A stretch of 64,000 bases of DNA, from assembly GCA_020161135.1 (NCBI GenBank), contig JAIUOB010000001.1, positions 558,001 through 622,000 on the forward strand. The letters run 5' to 3'. Both the position numbers and the translations under genes were made by a program. Under the pieces are notes generated by a model, which was not told the DNA's origin, searched no databases, and saw nothing but the letters and a program-made list of their open reading frames with translations. Positions 31,690 through 41,623 of the stretch are shown here, piece by piece. Source of the DNA: Gemmatimonadota bacterium. GTDB lineage: Bacteria > Gemmatimonadota > Gemmatimonadetes > Gemmatimonadales > Gemmatimonadaceae. Numbering within the stretch: the first letter of the stretch is position 1; every line of letters starts with the position of its first letter.

Positions 31690-31743
31690 ACGCCGGGCCC
31701 GTGTGCGAGCCTGCTCGGCTGGCACTCGATCAGGACGGGCATC

Positions 31744-31893
31744 GCTGAACAGCCTCGCCACGGATTGCGCGGATGGCACGCGGATCGACCTCGATGCCGT
31801 CCTGATGCGGCGCGGGCAGCCGGATGTCAGAACGCGGGCGATCGTGCATCTCCATCCGCACGTATCCGCGAAATCCGTGGCAAGCAGTTCAGC
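31744..31893. repeat. Long intergenic palindrome, copy A (left edge of defence island)
   Basis: Ends are GCTGAAC and GTTCAGC. The left arm (GCCACGGATTGCGCGGAT) and the right arm (ATCCGCGAAATCCGTGGC) are near-perfect inverted complements around a looser middle of about 95 bp, giving a 150-bp element. A shorter relative lies at 41468-41581. Its right end carries the stop codon of the 72-aa gene. Elements built on repeated ATCCGTG words are known from several bacterial phyla as dispersed intergenic palindromes; mobility here is inferred only. Confidence 0.8.
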
Positions 31894-32107
31894 GGGTATG
31901 GCACGACGGACAGCAAAATGCGCATCCATCGATCACGGCCTGAGGCCAGCTCATCCGGGCCTGAGCAAGCGCGCCGTGGCAACTGCTGTGCCAGCCGAGA
32001 TCGATCTGATTCTGGGGAAGGGGCATCGCGCCGCAACCACTCGTGAGGTTGTGGACCTCGTACTCGCCGGACGGCTGGACATTCTTGTTGATGATGAACC
32101 GAGACAT
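31889..32107 (-). CDS. Small Cys-rich protein (72 aa), function unknown
   Basis: 72 aa with a perfect GGAGG ribosome-binding site 5 nt before the ATG and its own near-consensus promoter (32194-32222), so it is surely expressed. Sequence features: MSRFIINKNVQ start, VHNLTSGCG, DLGWHSSCHGAL and a C-terminal GCAFCCPSCHT block. The seven cysteines and neighbouring His residues suggest zinc binding or redox chemistry. I believe close relatives occur as stand-alone small proteins in many genomes, but cannot cite one. The stop codon lies inside the palindromic repeat. It is last in the leftward array of the defence island and may be cargo, a regulator or an unrelated passenger. Confidence 0.78.
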   Translation of the reverse strand: MSRFIINKNVQPSGEYEVHNLTSGCGAMPLPQNQIDLGWHSSCHGALAQARMSWPQAVIDGCAFCCPSCHTR

Positions 32108-32193
32108 CGGAGCCTCCACTGCTAGGCGGTGACATGAGGCGACTGGTCTCGGGTCGGACTTTCGACCGAAGATCGAGCCGCGAACTGAAAACC

Positions 32194-32222
32194 ATCCTAG
32201 GGCAGCAGATGTTCAGTGTCAA
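32194..32222 (-). promoter_or_regulatory. Sigma-70-type promoter for the 72-aa gene
   Basis: Reading leftward: TTGACA (32222-32217, six of six), 17-bp spacer, TAGGAT (32199-32194, four of six). Transcription would begin about 80 nt before the ATG at 32107. An inverted repeat AGTGT-N7-ACACT (32215-32231) covers the -35 box and could be an operator, for example for the XRE regulator encoded 0.8 kb upstream. Confidence 0.65.
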
Positions 32223-32249
32223 CTGTACACTACCCGAACATACTCCGAA

Positions 32250-32927
32250 TTAAAGTAGGACGGGATCGAGCACCACCAAGCCGGACTCCTTGAGGGCAAT
32301 GCCCATCGCGGTGACCGACGCGAGAAACACGCGCGACAAGGATGGCTGATCGGCCATCGCTCTACGCGAGATCTCGCGGGCGAAACTGCCGAGGTCTGAT
32401 CCCTGTGGACAGACGAGTGGTGCACCGCCGAACCGCTCAGCGAACTCCCTTCTCAACGGAGCGCGAGGAATCAGTAGATGGCTGGCAAAGTAGTTTGCTT
32501 GCCACTCGATTGAGTCGAGGTTCGAGCTCGCCTCGTCACCCAGAGTAGCCACCGAGACCAGCAGTTCTTCCTGCATCGTCGTGGCGTCTCGCAGATGTCG
32601 CTCGAGAGCCAGCGGTCTGTGCAGGACCCAGTGACCGATCTCGTGCGCTAGTGTGAACCGAAACCTCGCGAGATCTCTGGCCTTGAGGTTCGAGCAGACG
32701 AATATCCTCCCGGCAACCAGCTCGGTGAGCCCGAGGACCTCGTGACCCTCATGAGAAGCGAGAGGTCTGTCTTCCACGAAGACGAGCCCCTCACGCTCGC
32801 AGAGGTAGTCGTACACCAGCGTCTCAAGATCGACCGGAACCTGCCCCGCTCGGTCTCCAAGTGCTCGTGAGAGGAGTGCGCTCGCCGCATTGACAATCAA
32901 TGGCTTGGTCAGGAATGGTGCCCGCAC
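32250..32927 (-). CDS. ImmA/IrrE family metallopeptidase (M78)
   Basis: 225 aa. The zinc-protease motif HEIGHW (95-100) sits in LARFRFTLAHEIGHWVLH, the diagnostic block of ImmA/IrrE. A third ligand is likely the Glu in SIEWQANYFASHLLIP, also family-typical. Enzymes of this type cleave a partner XRE repressor or DdrO-like regulator when activated by stress or a mobile-element signal. Here the partner is encoded just upstream (6-nt gap). The C-terminal 45 residues are family-variable. Base composition is lower in GC than the flanking chromosome, as elsewhere in the island. Confidence 0.93.
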   Translation of the reverse strand: MRAPFLTKPLIVNAASALLSRALGDRAGQVPVDLETLVYDYLCEREGLVFVEDRPLASHEGHEVLGLTELVAGRIFVCSNLKARDLARFRFTLAHEIGHWVLHRPLALERHLRDATTMQEELLVSVATLGDEASSNLDSIEWQANYFASHLLIPRAPLRREFAERFGGAPLVCPQGSDLGSFAREISRRAMADQPSLSRVFLASVTAMGIALKESGLVVLDPVLL

Positions 32928-32933
32928 GGTCTG

Positions 32934-33284
32934 TCACTCCTTCTGCTTTCTGGCGAGATCCCTCAACAGCCCTTCCTTCTCGGCGTCCGTCATCTTCTGC
33001 ACACGGCGGAACAGGGCGACTTCCCGAGCAGAAGTCGGAAGCGCCTCCTCCGGAACCTTGCGTACCAATCCGAAGAGTTCATCCTCGGAGATGCCCAGCG
33101 CTGTCGAAACTGCGCGCAATAGTGCATCCGTGGTCGATGGCGGGACTGACTCTGTTTCTAGAAGCACAACGAAGGTCGGTGACTTCTCGATGAGCTTGGC
33201 GAACTGGCGAATCGACAATCCGCGGTCAGCACGCGCCTCACGAATACGCCTGCCGAGATCAGACGGCATGGGAAGTCCGGTCAT
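32934..33284 (-). CDS. XRE-family helix-turn-helix regulator
   Basis: 116 aa. The DNA-binding domain (about residues 8-68) reads LGRRIREARADRGLSIRQFA, then KSPTFVVLLETE, the lambda-Cro/XRE fold. The C-terminal 45 residues are charged helix. It immediately precedes the ImmA gene (6 nt), forming the classic repressor-protease pair in which ImmA cuts the XRE protein to relieve repression. Possible targets are the palindromes near 32223 and at 39930-39994. An ATG at 33269 is an alternative start. It lies 37 nt after the nuclease gene, so the pair may be read from the restriction operon. Confidence 0.9.
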   Translation of the reverse strand: MTGLPMPSDLGRRIREARADRGLSIRQFAKLIEKSPTFVVLLETESVPPSTTDALLRAVSTALGISEDELFGLVRKVPEEALPTSAREVALFRRVQKMTDAEKEGLLRDLARKQKE

Positions 33285-33321
33285 GGGTTGTTTCCGATCA
33301 TGGCGATGCGTGCGGTTTGCG

Positions 33322-34788
33322 TCATGTAGAGCGAATCTCGCCGAGCAGGGCGTCATGAAGCCGCACCATCGCCATCGTATCCAGCGCGCAGTATTCGAGC
33401 AGCTCACGTCGCCGCGCGTCGTGCTCAGCAGAAGGGACCTCGCCAACCTTCATGAACGAGAAGATTGCGGCGGCTACGGTGCCGTTTCCGACTGCGAGGT
33501 GCTCGTATGAGAGACTGGGAACCATGACTGGCAGCACCTTCTTGATCGACGACGAACCCGCGAACCGATAGTCGATGTAACCGTTCTTGAAGAACGGCTC
33601 AAGGTCAAACAACCTGGCGACGATCCGTTCGAGTTGTTCAGCGAGATCCGGGTATGCAACGGACAGTGCGTTAAGCCGCGTCTTCTCGTACGACGAGTAC
33701 ACCATGATCGAGCCCTCGCCGTGCAGGCTCGACACCAAGCGCTCGGCGAGCTCGCGCCGCCAATCGCCATCGACAGACGCGAGATACTCGACGTGGGTGG
33801 GCTCCGCCAGCGGCGTGGCCCGCGTGTGAATCGAGAACTGGTGTGGCCAGGTGGCATACGTGGTGTCTCCCTCGAACCACGGAATGGCCGGCATTACCGC
33901 CTCGAAGTCGAGGTAGTGCACTGGCCATTGCACCCGAAGCAGATTACTGAGCACATCATCGTCGCGCTCAACGCCACCACGCTTCACGAGATCGACGACC
34001 TGCCGCTGCGCTGGAGTGAGACTCACGGAGTCAGGCAGCGTCGCGATACGCACATGCGGCAATAGCTCGTTCAGCTTCTTCTCATTGAGCCGCGGGATGC
34101 GGAGCACTGAATCTTCGATGCCCACGCCAATGCATCGGGTGTCGAAGTAGGCGCACTCCTTGCAGGTCATCGAGAGCGATGGCGCAGGCTTCGCCGAGCC
34201 GCTGAGGGTCCGGACCAAGTCGGGAGCGATGACGTTGAACTCTACTGCGCGCGCTGTGGCCTCCGCAGTAATGTCAAGCGCTTCGAGCAGTGGAAGATCC
34301 GCTCCCGCTACGTACGCGCGCGACAGCAGCATCAGTGTCACGCGTGATACCTGAACGCCGGCCCACTGCGCGACGAGCAGTGTGAACGCCGCGTCGTCGA
34401 TGTGCTCCGGTTTCGGAACACCTTTCTCCGGCATCTTGCTGGACTTCACTTCCACCAGCTCCCAACCATTCTCCGTCGGGAGCATTGCATCGGCCCTGGC
34501 GAGCAACCCACCGGCAGACATTGTCACCTCGTACAGTCGCTCGCTCGTCGATGCGAGCGCGGCGGCGGACTCCTGCAGTGCCGTGTCGCCGAAAGGTGGC
34601 AGCATGCGGCCCGGGCCGATCACTTCACGTGCAATCGCGCCGATCTGATTGCCCTCGAAGAACTTCCACCGAAGTCCCGCATCGGGCGACGAACCGGGCC
34701 CTTCGCGATCCAGAAACGCCATCGTCTGGCAAGCCAGACCGTTCAGGAACTCACGCTTGCTGAGGGGTTTCGTCTCGGGAGCTGTCAT
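33322..34788 (-). CDS. DUF2779 protein: Cas4-like nuclease plus DEDD-exonuclease-like domain
   Basis: 488 aa. N-terminal part: SKREFLNGLACQ (Cys20), Asp100 in ARADAML and Glu113-x-Lys115 in VEVKSS form a PD-(D/E)XK core, and Cys209, Cys212 and Cys219 (CKECAYFDTRC) with Cys20 match the four-cysteine iron-sulphur arrangement of Cas4/AddB nucleases. C-terminal DUF2779 part: HYLDFE (Asp294, Glu296), YSSYEKTRL (364-372) and YCALD (466-470) resemble motifs I-III of DEDD/RNase-H-like 3'-5' exonucleases. Its ATG overlaps the mod stop by 4 nt, so it is co-translated with the type III methylase. Domain assignments are by motif reading; DUF2779 has no defined role that I know. Confidence 0.85.
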   Translation of the reverse strand: MTAPETKPLSKREFLNGLACQTMAFLDREGPGSSPDAGLRWKFFEGNQIGAIAREVIGPGRMLPPFGDTALQESAAALASTSERLYEVTMSAGGLLARADAMLPTENGWELVEVKSSKMPEKGVPKPEHIDDAAFTLLVAQWAGVQVSRVTLMLLSRAYVAGADLPLLEALDITAEATARAVEFNVIAPDLVRTLSGSAKPAPSLSMTCKECAYFDTRCIGVGIEDSVLRIPRLNEKKLNELLPHVRIATLPDSVSLTPAQRQVVDLVKRGGVERDDDVLSNLLRVQWPVHYLDFEAVMPAIPWFEGDTTYATWPHQFSIHTRATPLAEPTHVEYLASVDGDWRRELAERLVSSLHGEGSIMVYSSYEKTRLNALSVAYPDLAEQLERIVARLFDLEPFFKNGYIDYRFAGSSSIKKVLPVMVPSLSYEHLAVGNGTVAAAIFSFMKVGEVPSAEHDARRRELLEYCALDTMAMVRLHDALLGEIRST

Positions 34789-37043
34789 CCAACGCTCACT
34801 GGAAACAAGGTGGTCGTGTCGTTGCCGAAGATGTCGATGACCTTCACGGCGACCACGTAGCGACCCGCCTTCGGGTACGTGTGGGGCGCCGAGGTGAGCT
34901 CGAGGCTACGGTCCTTCCGTGTACGGAAGCTCTGCCATTCGTTCTCGAAGATATAGCTACCCGTCCAGCGCTCCTCGAACTCGACAAACTCGAGCGGATC
35001 GGCCAGTCCGGGCAGTTGTCCCTCCACGCCCAGGTTCTTCGGCATCTTGATGATCTCCTTGCGACTCTCGTAGTCGAAGTCCACCGCCCAGTAGTCCACC
35101 CAGTCGGTCCAGTGCTTCGTGAGCACGCTGGTGGTCACCACGCCGTTCTTGTCCTTGGCCACCTTGACGAGCCGGCCCTGATCGCACACCACTTCGCTCT
35201 TGCCGGCCTTGAGCTCGGCCGTGATCGCATCGAGGACGCCCTGCGAGTAGTACACCGAGAAATCGGTGAGCTCGATGGCCAGCGACAGCGGGTTGCCGGC
35301 GTCGTAGCGCGGCGTGGCTTCCACATAGGCCACATCGTGGAAGCGCACCTGCCCCTTCTCCACCGCGCGCTTGTCGAACACTTCGGGCGGAATGGTCCGC
35401 GGTGTGATGTCGATGCCCTTCTGTTTGGCCTCGTCGAGCACGGCAGGGAAGAGCCCCATCTCGAACTCGAAGGCGAGAATGTCGACCCGCGTGGCGCCGC
35501 GTTTGCGGCACTCGGTGATGACTTCCTCCACGAACAGTCGCCCCACCGGCAGGTTGATGGGGCCCACCACCACCAGCCGCGAGCCGCTGCGCCCGTGAAA
35601 GAACGCCACGTCGGCCAGCGGCTCGGCGCGATACGCCTTGAGGATGAGGTCGCGGAACTCCTGCTCTCGCTTGGCCAGCGCGTCGGCCCTCTTCTTGCCC
35701 GTCAGGCGCCCAGACACATTGAGGTACGCCTGCCGCTCGTAGCGCCCTAGATTGAGCACCTCGAACGCGCGAAACGGCGTGCCGGCGGACTTGAGGTCGC
35801 GCTGCACCTGGATGAGCCGCTTGCGCGTGGTGTGAATGCCGAACTTGCCCAGATCGGTGGCGATCCACTTGCGGCCGAGCTTCTCGGCCACAGCGGCCGT
35901 GGTGCCGGAGCCGATGAAAAAGTCGGCGACGAGATCGCCGGGGTTCGAGCTGGTCAGGATGATGCGCTCAAGCAAAGACTCCGGCTTCTGGGTCGGATAG
36001 TCCGTGCGTTCGACCGAAGCTGTGCCTATCTGACCGATGTCGACCCACAGATTGTCGACGGCCGAACCCTCGGACTCGTCCAGGTATTTCTTGTATATGG
36101 GATACTTGGAAGAAGGAATGATCCGAGCCTCACCTGCCGCGATAAGCTGTGCGAGCCTCTCATCGGAATAGGTTGCCATCGGCTGCCACTTAAACCGCCT
36201 TCCCGACCCATCGACCTTGTCATACCGCTTCATTGCGCCGTCGTTCAGTTCACGCCACTGCTTGTTGAAGATCGCTCGCTCGGAGCGAACGAAGTAGAAG
36301 ACGGTGTCGGTGTTCGCCGGTAGCTTATTCGCGAGCCCCTTGCTGCTGCCCGCGTTGAATGTGCGCTTCCAAATGATCTCTGCTTTGAAGTTGCTTTGGC
36401 CGAAGACTTCGTTAAGCAGCAATCTTATGAATGCGCTTACTCGATAGTCGCAGTGAACGTAGATGCTCGCGTCGTCCGCCATCAGATCTCGCATTAGGAC
36501 CAAGCGTTCGTAGATCATCGCGATGAACGAGTCCGCGCCCCGCCCCCACGTATCCCGATATGCAATCTGCTCGAGCAGATTCGGTTCCTTGTGGAACGTC
36601 TCACCGCCGATCTCGATATCCATGCTGAAATCCGCCCCGACATCGAACGGCGGATCGATGTAGATGAGCTTGAGCCCACCGGCATCCTCGATCTGCTGAC
36701 GCAGCGCACCAGACTTGAGCGACGACAGGATGAGCTTGTTGTCTCCCCAGATGAGCTTGTTGGTCCAGCCCTTGCTTTGACGCCCACCGAGGTCGAAGCC
36801 CAGCTCCTCGTTGCCGCGCGTTTCGCGACGCGGTTCGTCGATGTGCTCGAGCGTCTGGAATGGCAGAATCGCCGTGCTCACTTCGCGCGTCTTGCCGTTC
36901 CACACCAGTTCCACTTCGCGCTTGTCGGCAAAGAGAATGAACCGGTACTTGTCCGGCAAGGGCTCACCCAGATCGATGAGTTTGATGAGGTCGCGCTTCT
37001 CGGCGTCGGAAAGGTCGTACGCCTTCTCGGTGCTGCGGGCCAT
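34785..37043 (-). CDS. mod: Type III DNA methyltransferase, Mod subunit
   Basis: 752 aa. DPPF (130-133) precedes FIGSGT (376-381), the beta-class order of N6-adenine methyltransferases used by type III systems. The region between them (about 135-365) is the target-recognition domain; its DNA (about 35.95-36.65 kb) is visibly lower in GC than the rest of the gene, as expected if specificity was swapped by recombination. The C-terminal 300 residues form the Res-contacting part. Mod methylates one strand of an asymmetric site and guides the Res helicase. It starts 11 nt after res and overlaps the DUF2779 gene. I start at ATG 37043; an upstream in-frame extension runs antisense to nothing useful but overlaps res. 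Confidence 0.93.
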   Translation of the reverse strand: MARSTEKAYDLSDAEKRDLIKLIDLGEPLPDKYRFILFADKREVELVWNGKTREVSTAILPFQTLEHIDEPRRETRGNEELGFDLGGRQSKGWTNKLIWGDNKLILSSLKSGALRQQIEDAGGLKLIYIDPPFDVGADFSMDIEIGGETFHKEPNLLEQIAYRDTWGRGADSFIAMIYERLVLMRDLMADDASIYVHCDYRVSAFIRLLLNEVFGQSNFKAEIIWKRTFNAGSSKGLANKLPANTDTVFYFVRSERAIFNKQWRELNDGAMKRYDKVDGSGRRFKWQPMATYSDERLAQLIAAGEARIIPSSKYPIYKKYLDESEGSAVDNLWVDIGQIGTASVERTDYPTQKPESLLERIILTSSNPGDLVADFFIGSGTTAAVAEKLGRKWIATDLGKFGIHTTRKRLIQVQRDLKSAGTPFRAFEVLNLGRYERQAYLNVSGRLTGKKRADALAKREQEFRDLILKAYRAEPLADVAFFHGRSGSRLVVVGPINLPVGRLFVEEVITECRKRGATRVDILAFEFEMGLFPAVLDEAKQKGIDITPRTIPPEVFDKRAVEKGQVRFHDVAYVEATPRYDAGNPLSLAIELTDFSVYYSQGVLDAITAELKAGKSEVVCDQGRLVKVAKDKNGVVTTSVLTKHWTDWVDYWAVDFDYESRKEIIKMPKNLGVEGQLPGLADPLEFVEFEERWTGSYIFENEWQSFRTRKDRSLELTSAPHTYPKAGRYVVAVKVIDIFGNDTTTLFPVSVG

Positions 37044-37054
37044 GGGCAGGGCGC

Positions 37055-39769
37055 TCAGTGCTGGTATTCGGTGAAGCTCGCCGCGAGGGCGGCCATCGTC
37101 GCCGGGGGGTGCTTCGCGAAGCCGTCCTCGTCCACATACACGAACCGGTACGCTGTGCCGCTGTCGCCTGCGCCGGCGGCCGTGGCATCGGCACACCACT
37201 GGCGCAGCCGCGCCATTTTCTGTGGCAAATCCAGCTCCTCGCGTCCCTTGGTCTCCACCAGCCACACCGTGCCATCGGCGGTGCGTACGATGAAGTCGGG
37301 GATGTAGTTGGACAGTTCACCGTTTGCTCGCACGTAATCGATGCGGAATCCTACGGCGAGGTAGTTCTTGGCATGGGCCTGCACATCGGGCGCCGCCTCG
37401 AGGAAGGCCGCAAACGCCAGCTCCAGCCCCCCGGCGCGCGGCTCGGCCACCATGCGGGTGAACACGGATTTCTTCGGGTACAGGAACGGGCGACTCTCGG
37501 TGCGGAACGGCCGTGCATCCTGCAGGCGAATGGTGCTCTCGATCTGCGTGCTGCCGCTGTCCTGCACGGTGAGCGCATTGATGGCCGCCTTGAACCGGTC
37601 GACGATGATCTTGCCCACCTCCGGCTCCGAAAGGTTGCGCAGCACGACGGCGCTGTCGAGGTCGACCGGGTCGCCCTCGAAGAGAAATTCACGGATGAAC
37701 CGCTTCACCTGCCCGTACACCACCTCGTACCCGCCCACGAGGCGCAGGTCATTGAGCAGCTGCCGGGCGAAGAACCCGATTACCGACCGCCAGTCGGCTG
37801 GGCCGGCGCCGTCCAGATGGATCGTGTGATCGACCTCGCCGTGCAGCATGGTCTTGAAGACAATCTCGCGCGTCTCATCGGCGTTGAACGCCTTGAGTGG
37901 CAGGCGTGGGCCGCCGAGGGCGGCGGCATCGAGTCCCTCCAGACCGCCAAACTCCCGCACGAAACGGCGCGCCATGCGTGGCAGCGCAATATCCAGCGCG
38001 TCGATGTCCTTGTCCGGATTGCCGCGCTCCACTTCCACTACGAGCGAGTCGGTACGCGCGGAGCCGGCGCCCATCGCCACCCGCTCGAATGTCACGCCTT
38101 CGTTCTGGATCGACTCGACGAAATCCATGAACGCCGGAGTCCCCATCACGGAGACCGTTTCGCGCACATCGGTACCGAAGTACATGCGCCGGAGACCACG
38201 CCCGAGGGTCTGTTCAGGGAGGATGTTGCTCTTGGCCGCGTACGCCCGCAGGCCCACGATCGTGGTCACGTTGCGCACGTCCCACCCCTCCTTGAGCATC
38301 AGCACCGACACGATGGCCTTGTAGGGAGACGGCCACGAGTCGATCTGATTGGACTGCTTCCGCAGCAGTTCCAGCTCCTCCTTGTTCTTGCCGCTCGCCG
38401 CCTCGGCGATCTCACCGTTGTTCTTGGTGTGAATGACCAGCACCCCGCCGGCCAGCTCGGGGCAGATCTTCTCGAGGTACTCCCCAACGTCGTCACAGTT
38501 GCGGGTGTCGTCCACCATCACGAACAGCACCGCCTTCTTGCCCAGGGCCTGATGCTCGGCGAAGCTCTTGCGCCACTCCTCCACGCCGAGGGCGAGATAG
38601 TCGGCGTACTTCTCGGTGAACAGCGCGCTGGCACGCTCGTGCAGCTTGCTTCGGCTGGCTTCGTCCGGGAGCACCGGATGCTTCACCACGTTCTGGTGGA
38701 TGGCCTCCACCAGCGGGTAGTCCGACACCGTTTGCACGAAGATCGCGCCGTTGTCGTGGCGCGGCGTAGCCGTCACATCCACCTGCAGGGCGAGCTTCAG
38801 TTCCTTCTGGCGCATCCGATGGTGGATGTTCGCAATGGACTTGAACCACGCCATGCGCGCGTCGTGGATGTGGTGGGCCTCGTCGTTGAAGACCGCCAGC
38901 TCGTCGATCTCGCGCACGATCTCGCCGAGGTCGGTCTTGCTATCGTTCGTCCTGCCGGTAGGGCGATCACCAAACGGCTGCAGGAAGTAGTTGCGAAGGT
39001 CCTCATCGGCCAGCGAGGGCTCCGGCACGTCGCTCAGGAAGACGCGATGAATGTTCGTGAGGAAGATGTTGCCCGTCTCCCGGACCACCCGGACATCGTC
39101 CTGCACGTGCAGCGCGACTTGAAAGTCGTCACGCCAATTCTGCCCCGCATGGCCGTTCTCGGGCAGCACGGGATCGTTGAAGAAGATCCGCAGCCCATCG
39201 AAGTCTGCGCGCAGGCGATCGAGCACGATGATGTTCGGCGCAATCACCAGGAAGTTGCGGGCAAGCTCGGAACCTTCCTCGTAGGTGCGATGGAAGAAGC
39301 TCCAGGCGATGAGCAGTGACAGCACCTTGGTCTTGCCGGCGCCGGTCGCGAGCTTGAGCACGAAGCGTGGCCAGTCCTCATCGAACATGCCGCTTGACAC
39401 GGCGCCGGACGCATCGAATCGCAGCAGATCGAACTTGTCGCGCACCTTGCGCACATCGTAGAGCCAGATAACCGTCTCGACGGCCTCCCGCTGCGCGAAG
39501 TAGTAGCGAAACTCGCTGAGCGACCCGTCGGCGTGCTCCGTCAGGTGCGGCGTGTCGAACCACCAGCGCAGCAGGGCCGCAGAGGTCGCGCTCGCGCCGA
39601 CATAGCCGCCCTCACGCCAGGTGTGCACCTCTTGCCTGACCTTGGCCACCAGCGGCGGCAGGAGCTTCTCGTAGGCGGTCGCCCGAAGCGTCTCGTCGGC
39701 AGGGAACCACCGCTGGTCGGGCAGCAGCGGTGCATAGGGAGAGGTTGGAAAGTCCGGGTGCAGCGACAT
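37055..39769 (-). CDS. res: Type III restriction enzyme, Res subunit
   Basis: 904 aa. Superfamily 2 helicase motifs: GAGKT (143-147), NDEAHH (295-300), VTATPR (332-337), MLKEGWDVRNV and QTLGRGLRR (VI). The C-terminal nuclease has PDF (Asp825), then Glu839-x-Lys841 in VETKG, a complete PD-(D/E)XK site. Together with Mod it would translocate along DNA and cut near head-to-head unmethylated sites. Here res is upstream of mod, opposite to the common mod-res order. It is the first gene of the leftward island operon; its promoter must lie in the AT-rich 39.77-40.0 kb gap, but I find only weak boxes for it. Confidence 0.93.
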   Translation of the reverse strand: MSLHPDFPTSPYAPLLPDQRWFPADETLRATAYEKLLPPLVAKVRQEVHTWREGGYVGASATSAALLRWWFDTPHLTEHADGSLSEFRYYFAQREAVETVIWLYDVRKVRDKFDLLRFDASGAVSSGMFDEDWPRFVLKLATGAGKTKVLSLLIAWSFFHRTYEEGSELARNFLVIAPNIIVLDRLRADFDGLRIFFNDPVLPENGHAGQNWRDDFQVALHVQDDVRVVRETGNIFLTNIHRVFLSDVPEPSLADEDLRNYFLQPFGDRPTGRTNDSKTDLGEIVREIDELAVFNDEAHHIHDARMAWFKSIANIHHRMRQKELKLALQVDVTATPRHDNGAIFVQTVSDYPLVEAIHQNVVKHPVLPDEASRSKLHERASALFTEKYADYLALGVEEWRKSFAEHQALGKKAVLFVMVDDTRNCDDVGEYLEKICPELAGGVLVIHTKNNGEIAEAASGKNKEELELLRKQSNQIDSWPSPYKAIVSVLMLKEGWDVRNVTTIVGLRAYAAKSNILPEQTLGRGLRRMYFGTDVRETVSVMGTPAFMDFVESIQNEGVTFERVAMGAGSARTDSLVVEVERGNPDKDIDALDIALPRMARRFVREFGGLEGLDAAALGGPRLPLKAFNADETREIVFKTMLHGEVDHTIHLDGAGPADWRSVIGFFARQLLNDLRLVGGYEVVYGQVKRFIREFLFEGDPVDLDSAVVLRNLSEPEVGKIIVDRFKAAINALTVQDSGSTQIESTIRLQDARPFRTESRPFLYPKKSVFTRMVAEPRAGGLELAFAAFLEAAPDVQAHAKNYLAVGFRIDYVRANGELSNYIPDFIVRTADGTVWLVETKGREELDLPQKMARLRQWCADATAAGAGDSGTAYRFVYVDEDGFAKHPPATMAALAASFTEYQH

Positions 39770-39898
39770 TGGGACTGGAGTGCCTTCGTGAGTTGTGGAA
39801 ACGTGGCCAAGTTATCCCTCCCCAAGACTGAGCGCAGTACACGCTCGTGGATTCTTCGGGTTAAAGCGATTAGACGATATTATTGAACCTTTTACACC

Positions 39899-39994
39899 CG
39901 CTTAAGCGCCGTTCGTCACTTCAACTTGTCTAAGATCAGAAGACTGACCTTGACCAGACACGGAAATGCAGTAAGATTAACTGACTGATCTTAG
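39899..39994. promoter_or_regulatory. Divergent control region between res and the AAA ATPase gene
   Basis: This is an AT-rich stretch within a 234-nt gap. Rightward, TTGACC (39950-39955) and TAAGAT (39972-39977), 16 bp apart, form a plausible promoter. Three copies of the word TAAGAT are arranged around it: direct at 39931, direct at 39972, inverted at 39988; the outer two extend to a perfect pair CTAAGATCAG (39930-39939) and CTGATCTTAG (39985-39994). A 10-bp perfect palindrome, CGCTTAAGCG, lies at 39899-39908 on the res side. The layout suggests control by a DNA-binding protein, perhaps the XRE regulator or the ATPase's own winged helix. Confidence 0.5.
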
Positions 39995-40003
39995 GAGAGT
40001 ACA

Positions 40004-41455
40004 GTGAGACAGATCCCTGCTGAGCAGGTACACAAGCGGCTCCGCGCCGAGAATCCGTGGTGGGCCGCACCGTACCAGACCGCCGCGACGTACAGGAGCT
40101 GGCATCCGCGCGCGTACCACGGACTCTTCCAGCCGCTCATCGAGCAGGTCGGCGTGCGGCGCGCCGTGCTGCTCATGGGTCCCCGTCGTGTCGGCAAGAC
40201 CGTGCTGCTGCATCACGCGGTACAGTCGCTACTCGATCGCGGAGCCGACCCACGCTCCCTTTGCTACATCGCGGTCGATCATCCCATCTACAATGGCTGC
40301 GGTATGGAGGAGCTCATTGAGCACTACGAGGCGGCGAGCGGCTTCACCGACCCGAACGCGCAGCGATTCATCTTCTTCGATGAGGTGCAATACCTTCGCG
40401 ATTGGGAAGTGCACCTCAAGGCGCTCGTGGACTCGCATCCGCGCATCAAGTTCGTCGCGTCGGGTTCGGCGGCAGCGGCGCTACGGCTGAAGAGCCACGA
40501 GTCTGGCGCGGGACGCTTTACCGACTTTCTGCTGCCACCACTCACCTTTCACGAGTACCTCGACCTGCTCGGCACCACAGCGGCGGTGCGACCCACTCCA
40601 CCGGCGGCGGGCGTTGACGACGACACATTTCCACGCGTCGAGGATATTCATGCCCTCAACACCGCCTTCATTCATTACCTCAACTTCGGCGGCTACCCCG
40701 AGGTCATTTTCTCTGACCTGATCCAGTCGGACCCGGGACGGTTCATCAAGAACGATATCGTAGACAAGGTTCTACTGCGCGACCTGCCAGGCCTGTACGG
40801 CATTCAAGACGTTCAGGAGCTCAACTACCTGTTCACAACGCTGGCATACAACACCGCGCAGGAAGTCTCGCTGGAACAGATCGCGCAGCGTTCCGGCGTG
40901 GCCAAGAATACCATCAAGCGCTACATCGAGTATCTCGAGGCGGCGTTCCTGTTGAAGGTGGTTCACCGCATCGACCGTTCGGCCAAGCGCTTTCAGCGCG
41001 CCAACTTCTTCAAGGTGTACCTCACGAACCCGTCCATCCGCGCGGCATTATTTTCGCCTATCGACGCGGACGACGACGCCGTTGGGGCGCTGGCTGAAAC
41101 CGGCATCTTCTCGCAGTGGTTTCACTGGACGGAGGCTCACTACTACGCGCGCTGGCAACAGGGCGAGGTCGACATCGTGGGTCTCGGTGGCCAGCAAAAG
41201 CCGCTGTGGGCAGTCGAGGTCAAGTGGAGTGACCGGTACGTCGATCATCCGTCGGAGCTACGGAGCACACTCCAATTCTGCCACGCCAATCAGCTCGACC
41301 GTGTAACTGTCACCACGCGGACACGCTCGGCCGAGCGCGTTGTGGAGGGCATTACGATCCGATTCGTCCCGGCAAGCCTGTACTGCTGGACTGTCGGGCG
41401 TAACGTCGTGCTGGGCAAGCACATGCTCGCCGCCGCTCGCATCGTGCAGCCGTGA
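40004..41455 (+). CDS. AAA_14/DUF4143 ATPase
   Basis: 483 aa from GTG, with AGGAG about 8 nt upstream. Walker A is GPRRVGKT (59-66); Walker B is FIFFDEVQ (122-129); a sensor region FVASGSAAAAL follows. A winged-helix segment (SLEQIAQRSGVAKNTIKRYIEYLEAAFLL, split over two helices) and a C-terminal DUF4143 domain containing GEVDIVGLGG and AVEVKW complete it; the latter resembles a PD-(D/E)XK fold and may bind or cut nucleic acid. Proteins of this architecture are common in genomic islands and often move on their own, function unknown. It is divergent from the restriction operon and ends 12 nt before repeat copy B. Confidence 0.88.
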   Translation: MRQIPAEQVHKRLRAENPWWAAPYQTAATYRSWHPRAYHGLFQPLIEQVGVRRAVLLMGPRRVGKTVLLHHAVQSLLDRGADPRSLCYIAVDHPIYNGCGMEELIEHYEAASGFTDPNAQRFIFFDEVQYLRDWEVHLKALVDSHPRIKFVASGSAAAALRLKSHESGAGRFTDFLLPPLTFHEYLDLLGTTAAVRPTPPAAGVDDDTFPRVEDIHALNTAFIHYLNFGGYPEVIFSDLIQSDPGRFIKNDIVDKVLLRDLPGLYGIQDVQELNYLFTTLAYNTAQEVSLEQIAQRSGVAKNTIKRYIEYLEAAFLLKVVHRIDRSAKRFQRANFFKVYLTNPSIRAALFSPIDADDDAVGALAETGIFSQWFHWTEAHYYARWQQGEVDIVGLGGQQKPLWAVEVKWSDRYVDHPSELRSTLQFCHANQLDRVTVTTRTRSAERVVEGITIRFVPASLYCWTVGRNVVLGKHMLAAARIVQP

Positions 41456-41467
41456 GCCGTCGGCATC

Positions 41468-41581
41468 GCTGAACCGCCTTACGACGGATCGCGCGGACTG
41501 CACACGGATCATGGGCCGTGGCATGCGTGCGGCAGCACCTCATCCGCGCGAATCCGTGCGATCCGTGGCGAGTAGTTCAGC
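41468..41581. repeat. Long intergenic palindrome, copy B (right edge of defence island)
   Basis: 114 bp from GCTGAAC to GTTCAGC, with arms carrying ACGGATCGCGCGGA and CACGGATC on the left, and ATCCGCGCGAATCCGTG and CGATCCGTGGC on the right. It shares its ends and arm words with copy A but has a shorter middle. It lies between the convergent ATPase and hydrolase genes and could also act as a terminator for both. Confidence 0.8.
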
Positions 41582-41623
41582 GGTCTGTCAAACGGACTGT
41601 GGCCGGCTCGCAATCACGCGCCC

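Follow-up and report, generated by a model that had tools for sequence, protein, structure and literature searches.

A gene island was analyzed in a 64-kb stretch (the window) of a 4.55-Mb Gemmatimonadaceae genome, where a type III restriction-modification (RM) operon is followed by genes for a predicted double nuclease of the DUF2779 family and for an XRE–ImmA regulator pair. Six collinear genes run leftward in the order res, mod, DUF2779, XRE, ImmA, and a gene for a 72-amino-acid (72-aa) cysteine-rich protein, and they are faced by a divergent gene for an AAA_14/DUF4143 ATPase; the order, strands, and domains given in the initial annotation were confirmed. Based on the predicted starts, mod and DUF2779 overlap by four nucleotides (4 nt; ATGA), and gaps of 37, 6, and 142 nt separate DUF2779 from XRE, XRE from ImmA, and ImmA from the 72-aa gene, respectively, all as previously claimed; only the gap between res and mod differed, being 8 nt and not 11 nt. 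The low G + C content attributed to the island was also borne out (61.6% vs 70.8% in the flanks).

The res gene (37055–39769, minus strand) encodes a type III restriction subunit composed of a superfamily 2 (SF2) helicase and a C-terminal PD-(D/E)XK motif. It matched ResIII and REase_III and contains the motifs GAGKT (residue 143), DEAH (296), PDFI (824), and ETKG (839); a PDB sequence search with Res returned no matches. The adjoining mod gene (34785–37046, minus strand) encodes a type III DNA methyltransferase with an N6_N4_Mtase domain and the motifs DPPF (131) and FIGSG (377). Its best PADLOC match was MTase_III (E value, 4.1e-111), and its PDB matches include EcoP15I Mod. The locus thus contains both elements by which a type III system is recognized, namely, a Mod with N6/N4 methyltransferase motifs and, next to it, a Res with an SF2 helicase and a C-terminal PD-(D/E)XK nuclease. 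No CD-NTase, which would indicate CBASS, was present among the matches listed for the seven genes. Type III systems are usually regarded as constitutive two-gene units, which methylate one strand and cleave through communication between two sites.

The DUF2779 gene (33322–34788, minus strand) begins within the end of mod. PF11074 (E value, 2.2e-29) was the only domain found in its 488-aa product, with no fused UvrD helicase, and the protein was predicted to combine an N-terminal Cas4-like PD-(D/E)XK nuclease carrying a four-cysteine set with a DEDDy 3′–5′ exonuclease. D100, E113, K115, D294, E368, Y466, and D470 were invariant in this protein and its 79 aligned relatives, E296 was conserved in 78 of the relatives, and C20, C209, C212, and C219 were found in 75 to 78 of them. 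Foldseek matches were of the Cas4/AdnA/RecE type, these nuclease-type matches having low TM-scores (0.25–0.27 by query length), and residues 287–488 matched the fold of a family-B polymerase proofreading exonuclease in a fold list (VIA) that covered only the exonuclease part. The conserved residues and the fold matches therefore uphold the dual-nuclease reading of the initial annotation, and DUF2779 is best described as a well-conserved, predicted Cas4-like and DEDDy double nuclease. Consistent with this result, DUF2779 has been placed in the RNase H-like superfamily as family F.17, with a predicted 3′–5′ exonuclease and a PD-(D/E)XK-like domain (DUF83), and an RM context is absent from the two passages on DUF2779 in that source (PMC3985635). 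Apart from the window's own protein, the 179 genomes of the family contained no relative more than 48% identical, and metagenome proteins reached 67% identity. Other members of the genus yielded no match passing 1e-60, and two of them showed weak matches.

The next two genes resemble a known regulatory pair. The XRE gene (32934–33284, minus strand; likely start at 33269, as judged from relatives) encodes a CapH-like repressor whose best PADLOC match was capH (E value, 1.3e-11), and the ImmA gene (32250–32927, minus strand) encodes a CapP-like M78 metalloprotease with a Peptidase_M78 domain and a HEIGH motif, whose best PADLOC match was capP (E value, 3.9e-18). The PDB sequence search with ImmA gave a single match, CapP (7t5t; E value, 0.0013). 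In the fold search, for which the ImmA model was of middling quality (predicted local distance difference test score, 74.8; of the five models, two exceeded 70), CapP ranked at the top (E value, 1.6e-5), and next came PprI, whose structure has likewise been determined with single-stranded DNA. CapH and CapP are described as damage-responsive regulators (PMC13373217). The window has the arrangement in which this pair is recognized, with genes for a repressor of the XRE type and then an M78 protease next to an immune operon, although here the pair sits downstream of the operon genes. In the passages of that paper on these regulators, BREX, Pycsar, CBASS, and DISARM are named for CapW/BrxR and CapH+CapP taken together, and type III systems are not named there. 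Of 80 viral-contig loci (from 82 matches to the ImmA query), 58 had an XRE relative immediately upstream of ImmA, as did all four relatives from the phylum; at one locus (L227), the gene caller missed ImmA, and its position was taken from a separate result. The pair thus resembles the CapH/CapP switch and, judging from its sequence, is likely a DNA-damage switch of the operon.

A candidate site of action for such a switch was found between res and the AAA_14/DUF4143 gene (40004–41455, plus strand; domain matches and a PADLOC PDC-S01 candidate). A pattern search located the palindrome TAAGATyAn4ACTGAyCTT at 39931–39951 and 39972–39992 (both plus strand). At up to two mismatches, these two copies, 41 bp apart, are the only ones in the genome, and both lie between the two divergent genes. 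When this region was shuffled, an equally good pair arose in 2 of 1000 shuffles. Because the pattern was drawn from these very sites, the evidence lies in their uniqueness and pairing and not in the match. Both palindromes overlap a sigma70-like promoter of AAA_14 (39950–39977, plus strand), which is a consensus match only, the region holding two such sites vs 2.0 expected by chance. The palindrome pair is a likely operator in the res/AAA_14 promoter region, although no such site was seen in relatives. The earlier claim that the XRE–ImmA pair makes the system inducible was strengthened by the CapH/CapP-like character of the pair and by this unique paired palindrome, and it was weakened by the surroundings of other mod genes described below.

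That a Cas4-class nuclease can be encoded beside type III mod is already known, and the version with DUF2779 appears to be new here. The type III Mod/Res genes are the commonest context of the UvrD–Cas4 fusion, and helix-turn-helix (HTH) and WYL regulators occur in several of its loci (Hudaiberdiev et al., 2017; PMC5704561); neither DUF2779 nor PF11074 is named in the text of that paper. We searched 80 of 438 matches to the window's mod (viral contigs) with the UvrD–Cas4 fusion of one locus (L345), in which the C-terminal cysteine motif was identified by pattern. Thirteen of these 80 loci (12 of 77 distinct ones) had a UvrD–Cas4 relative no more than 200 nt away from Mod, and 16 had one within 6 kb. 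As in the published loci, a Cas4-class PD-(D/E)XK nuclease is encoded next to mod and res in the window, but it is a DUF2779 protein with a DEDDy exonuclease domain and without a UvrD helicase, and the window locus is therefore not a member of the UvrD–Cas4 class. At L345 (305–9675), UvrD–Cas4, Mod, Res, XRE, and ImmA follow one another; by gene content, the window is this set with the place of the nuclease taken by DUF2779, which may work like the UvrD–Cas4 fusion. The stretch at L331 and L377, which share a contig (L377:1–3677), is cut before Res; there Res is followed by XRE and ImmA, and the junctions are an ATGA overlap and a gap of 6 nt. XRE and ImmA of L345 and L331 are 55 and 51% identical, respectively, and Res only 23%. 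At two further loci (L322 and L333), counted as one since their Res proteins are 99% identical, the XRE–ImmA pair lies upstream of mod.

Taken together, we tentatively favor, at close to an even chance, the interpretation that the island carries a type III res–mod operon with an ATGA-overlapping DUF2779 double nuclease and a CapH/CapP-like pair, and that this operon is likely inducible by DNA damage. XRE would repress the divergent res/AAA_14 promoter at the two palindromes. Single-stranded DNA arising from phage attack or from restriction would activate ImmA, which would cleave XRE. The levels of Mod and Res would then rise, and Res would cut unmethylated DNA. DUF2779 would enter at the ends made by Res and degrade or resect them, and would thereby do what the UvrD–Cas4 fusion is presumed to do at other type III loci. 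A bolder extension, which we consider improbable, is that type III genes, a Cas4-class nuclease (UvrD–Cas4 or DUF2779), and CapH/CapP would form a modular, self-amplifying defense, in which the resected single-stranded DNA would activate the protease and derepress the operon only where foreign DNA is cut.

Several observations weigh against the damage-inducible operon, most of them from the surroundings of related genes. The DUF2779 census comprised loci L002 to L118 without L108 and L109 (L119 was not taken in) and the 40 best matches after the window's own from a longer list, from which L165 was dropped as it had no DUF2779 call; this gave 154 loci besides the window, 152 of them distinct, and the genome-contig scan kept 80 of 540 matches. 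Clear type III genes were within three genes of DUF2779 at only two of the 154 loci (L092 and L086, whose contigs also carry L320 and L321, respectively). Among the 80 mod-query loci, neither DUF2779 nor ImmA was found within 6 kb of mod. Seven of the 154 loci had weaker Mod-profile matches 1–9 kb away, and at L104, on the contig of L086, weak matches were two and three genes from DUF2779. The four closest mod genes, all from the phylum, encode proteins 72–76% identical to Mod, and no DUF2779, XRE, or ImmA relative was beside them in the stretches read. Three of them (G393, G040, and G095 C10) form two-gene RM systems that resemble the window in having res and then mod but differ in lacking those relatives, and the fourth contig (G095 C157) is cut inside mod. 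Likewise, the 14 nearest DUF2779 loci were read without a fixed partner being seen, some having HipA-, HipB-, and MazF-like neighbors; the toxin–antitoxin and HsdM names in these neighborhoods and in those of the close mod genes and ImmA relatives were assigned by eye. M78-like genes, identified by pattern, were present at 2 of the 154 DUF2779 loci, at one of them within two genes. No second locus with both DUF2779 and XRE–ImmA was found, nor was the full gene set in another genome, and none of the papers listed in literature searches described a res–mod–DUF2779–XRE–ImmA set. In addition, the XRE–ImmA pair of L226 and L229 stands upstream of a large same-strand gene and not at the end of an operon, and neither gene there was named by PADLOC. 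The 13 UvrD–Cas4 proteins near Mod collapse into eight groups at 90% identity and two at 50%, and we infer the damage trigger itself from homology to CapP.

The expectation that DUF2779 would be a regular type III partner was therefore not sustained, and strict co-occurrence with type III mod was rejected as a rule; of the proposal that DUF2779 is an additional nuclease co-translated with Mod, the nuclease motifs and the ATGA overlap stood. The wider neighbors of DUF2779 include WYL regulators, D12 methylases, GmrSD, and IetA-, HEC-, and DrmD-like genes. A search among them for a conserved partner found none. WYL genes were the commonest direct same-strand neighbors, at 8 of 139 positions (5 of 68 upstream and 3 of 71 downstream); in a control, WYL genes made up 3 of 575 genes near DUF2779 vs 1 of 1346 far from it (p, 0.08), with one seed being a wrong open reading frame and the profile having drifted. 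These varied neighbors, together with L086 and L092, indicate that, as an island nuclease, DUF2779 is promiscuous; it accompanies type III operons in two or more branches and is not a fixed subunit of them. On an Aliarcobacter plasmid, DUF2779 comes immediately after genes for QatC and a TatD-family hydrolase (L116:5940–9494). An Aminobacter plasmid carries a Mod–Res pair, its Mod 56% identical to that of the window, after a DNA repair exonuclease and AAA ATPases (L108:1–12796). Relatives of the window mod at L241:3799–4620, L242:8499–10222, and L262:5715–6227 have extra genes between mod and res, which suggests that such operons acquire accessory genes.

It is possible, though somewhat doubtful, that independent units have been stacked in the island: a type III system of two genes, a DUF2779 nuclease serving defense or repair on its own, and an XRE–ImmA pair would share one transcript and not one DNA substrate. 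The occurrence of the closest mod genes without DUF2779 and the varied neighbors of the closest DUF2779 genes agree with such a stack, as do the differing G + C contents at third codon positions (0.86 for res and 0.82 for mod vs 0.74 for DUF2779, 0.66 for XRE, and 0.69 for ImmA). However, DUF2779 overlaps a type III gene by ATGA at two loci: in the window, the gene is mod, and at L092, it is Res, which lies directly before DUF2779. The row at L086 is DUF2779, a DrmD-like helicase, Mod, and Res, and between the stretches at L086 and L092 (19 and 10 called proteins of more than 100 aa), only Res (35% identity) and DUF2779 (36%) are common, which favors a lasting link in that branch. The recurrence of Cas4-class nucleases at type III mod also speaks against such a stack. 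A different doubt concerns the palindromes, which may be operators of the AAA_14/DUF4143 protein itself while XRE–ImmA acts elsewhere, for example, at an internal promoter that serves the pair. They overlap the AAA_14 side and its promoter-like site; the regions upstream of XRE in four relatives and upstream of UvrD–Cas4 in L345 showed no such palindrome, so that an operator of this kind conserved in relatives was not found; and AAA_14 may carry a winged helix of its own. We nevertheless consider this arrangement unlikely, with XRE being the only one of the seven genes that has an HTH family match.

The pair could also be an immunity switch of the ImmR–ImmA type that governs a mobile element and not restriction. 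The foreign G + C content of the island and the related palindromes that bound it agree with this explanation, and the contigs of L331 and L345 are related, with matches for 8 of 10 proteins, so that the two loci are not independent and the XRE–ImmA pair may belong to a backbone common to mobile contigs with differing Res. Different type III cores may have been placed in front of one regulator; the alternative is that the mobile backbone includes the pair. The shared backbone strengthens the mobile-element explanation and weakens both the damage-inducible operon and its self-amplifying extension. Still, family scans recognized no integrase, transposase, or relaxase among the seven island genes, PADLOC and PDB favor CapH/CapP for the pair, and the promoter region of res and AAA_14 is where the likely operators are situated; we regard a switch that serves only a mobile element as quite unlikely.

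The island is bounded by two imperfect palindromes, which begin at the stop codons of its terminal genes, at 31738–31893 on the left and 41462–41583 on the right, neither assigned to a strand. The first 49 nt of the right palindrome are 84% identical to the left one in direct orientation, and the arms of the family are CACGGATT.CGCGGAT-like. The genome of the window has single copies elsewhere, as do 3 of 29 further genomes of the genus, and the palindromes may be island ends or terminators. An attempt to find an empty site through the right flank gene was abandoned, as this gene is not conserved (of 29 other genomes of the genus, one had a match, at 39% identity). The outermost gene on the left (31889–32107, minus strand) encodes the 72-aa protein, which had no match in Pfam, NCBIfam, or PADLOC and belongs to a cysteine-rich family without a name on plasmids and prophages. 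In three aligned members, N7, N9, Q11, H19, C25, C43, C62, C65, C66, C69, and H70 are invariant. Its relatives are in 16 plasmid and 14 phage records, and the eight contexts read had transposases, recombinases, toxin–antitoxin genes, YegP, a helicase, RM genes, and lysogeny-region genes beside it. This scatter over mobile records and varied neighbors argues against the earlier inclusion of the protein in the system; it was rejected as a partner of the operon and is probably independent mobile cargo.

A predicted damage switch is built into this operon, and type III operons are found with Cas4-class nucleases of two architectures, UvrD–Cas4 and DUF2779, attached to them. Two questions now become testable, whether restriction is induced by its own damage and what the CRISPR-free relatives of Cas4 do.

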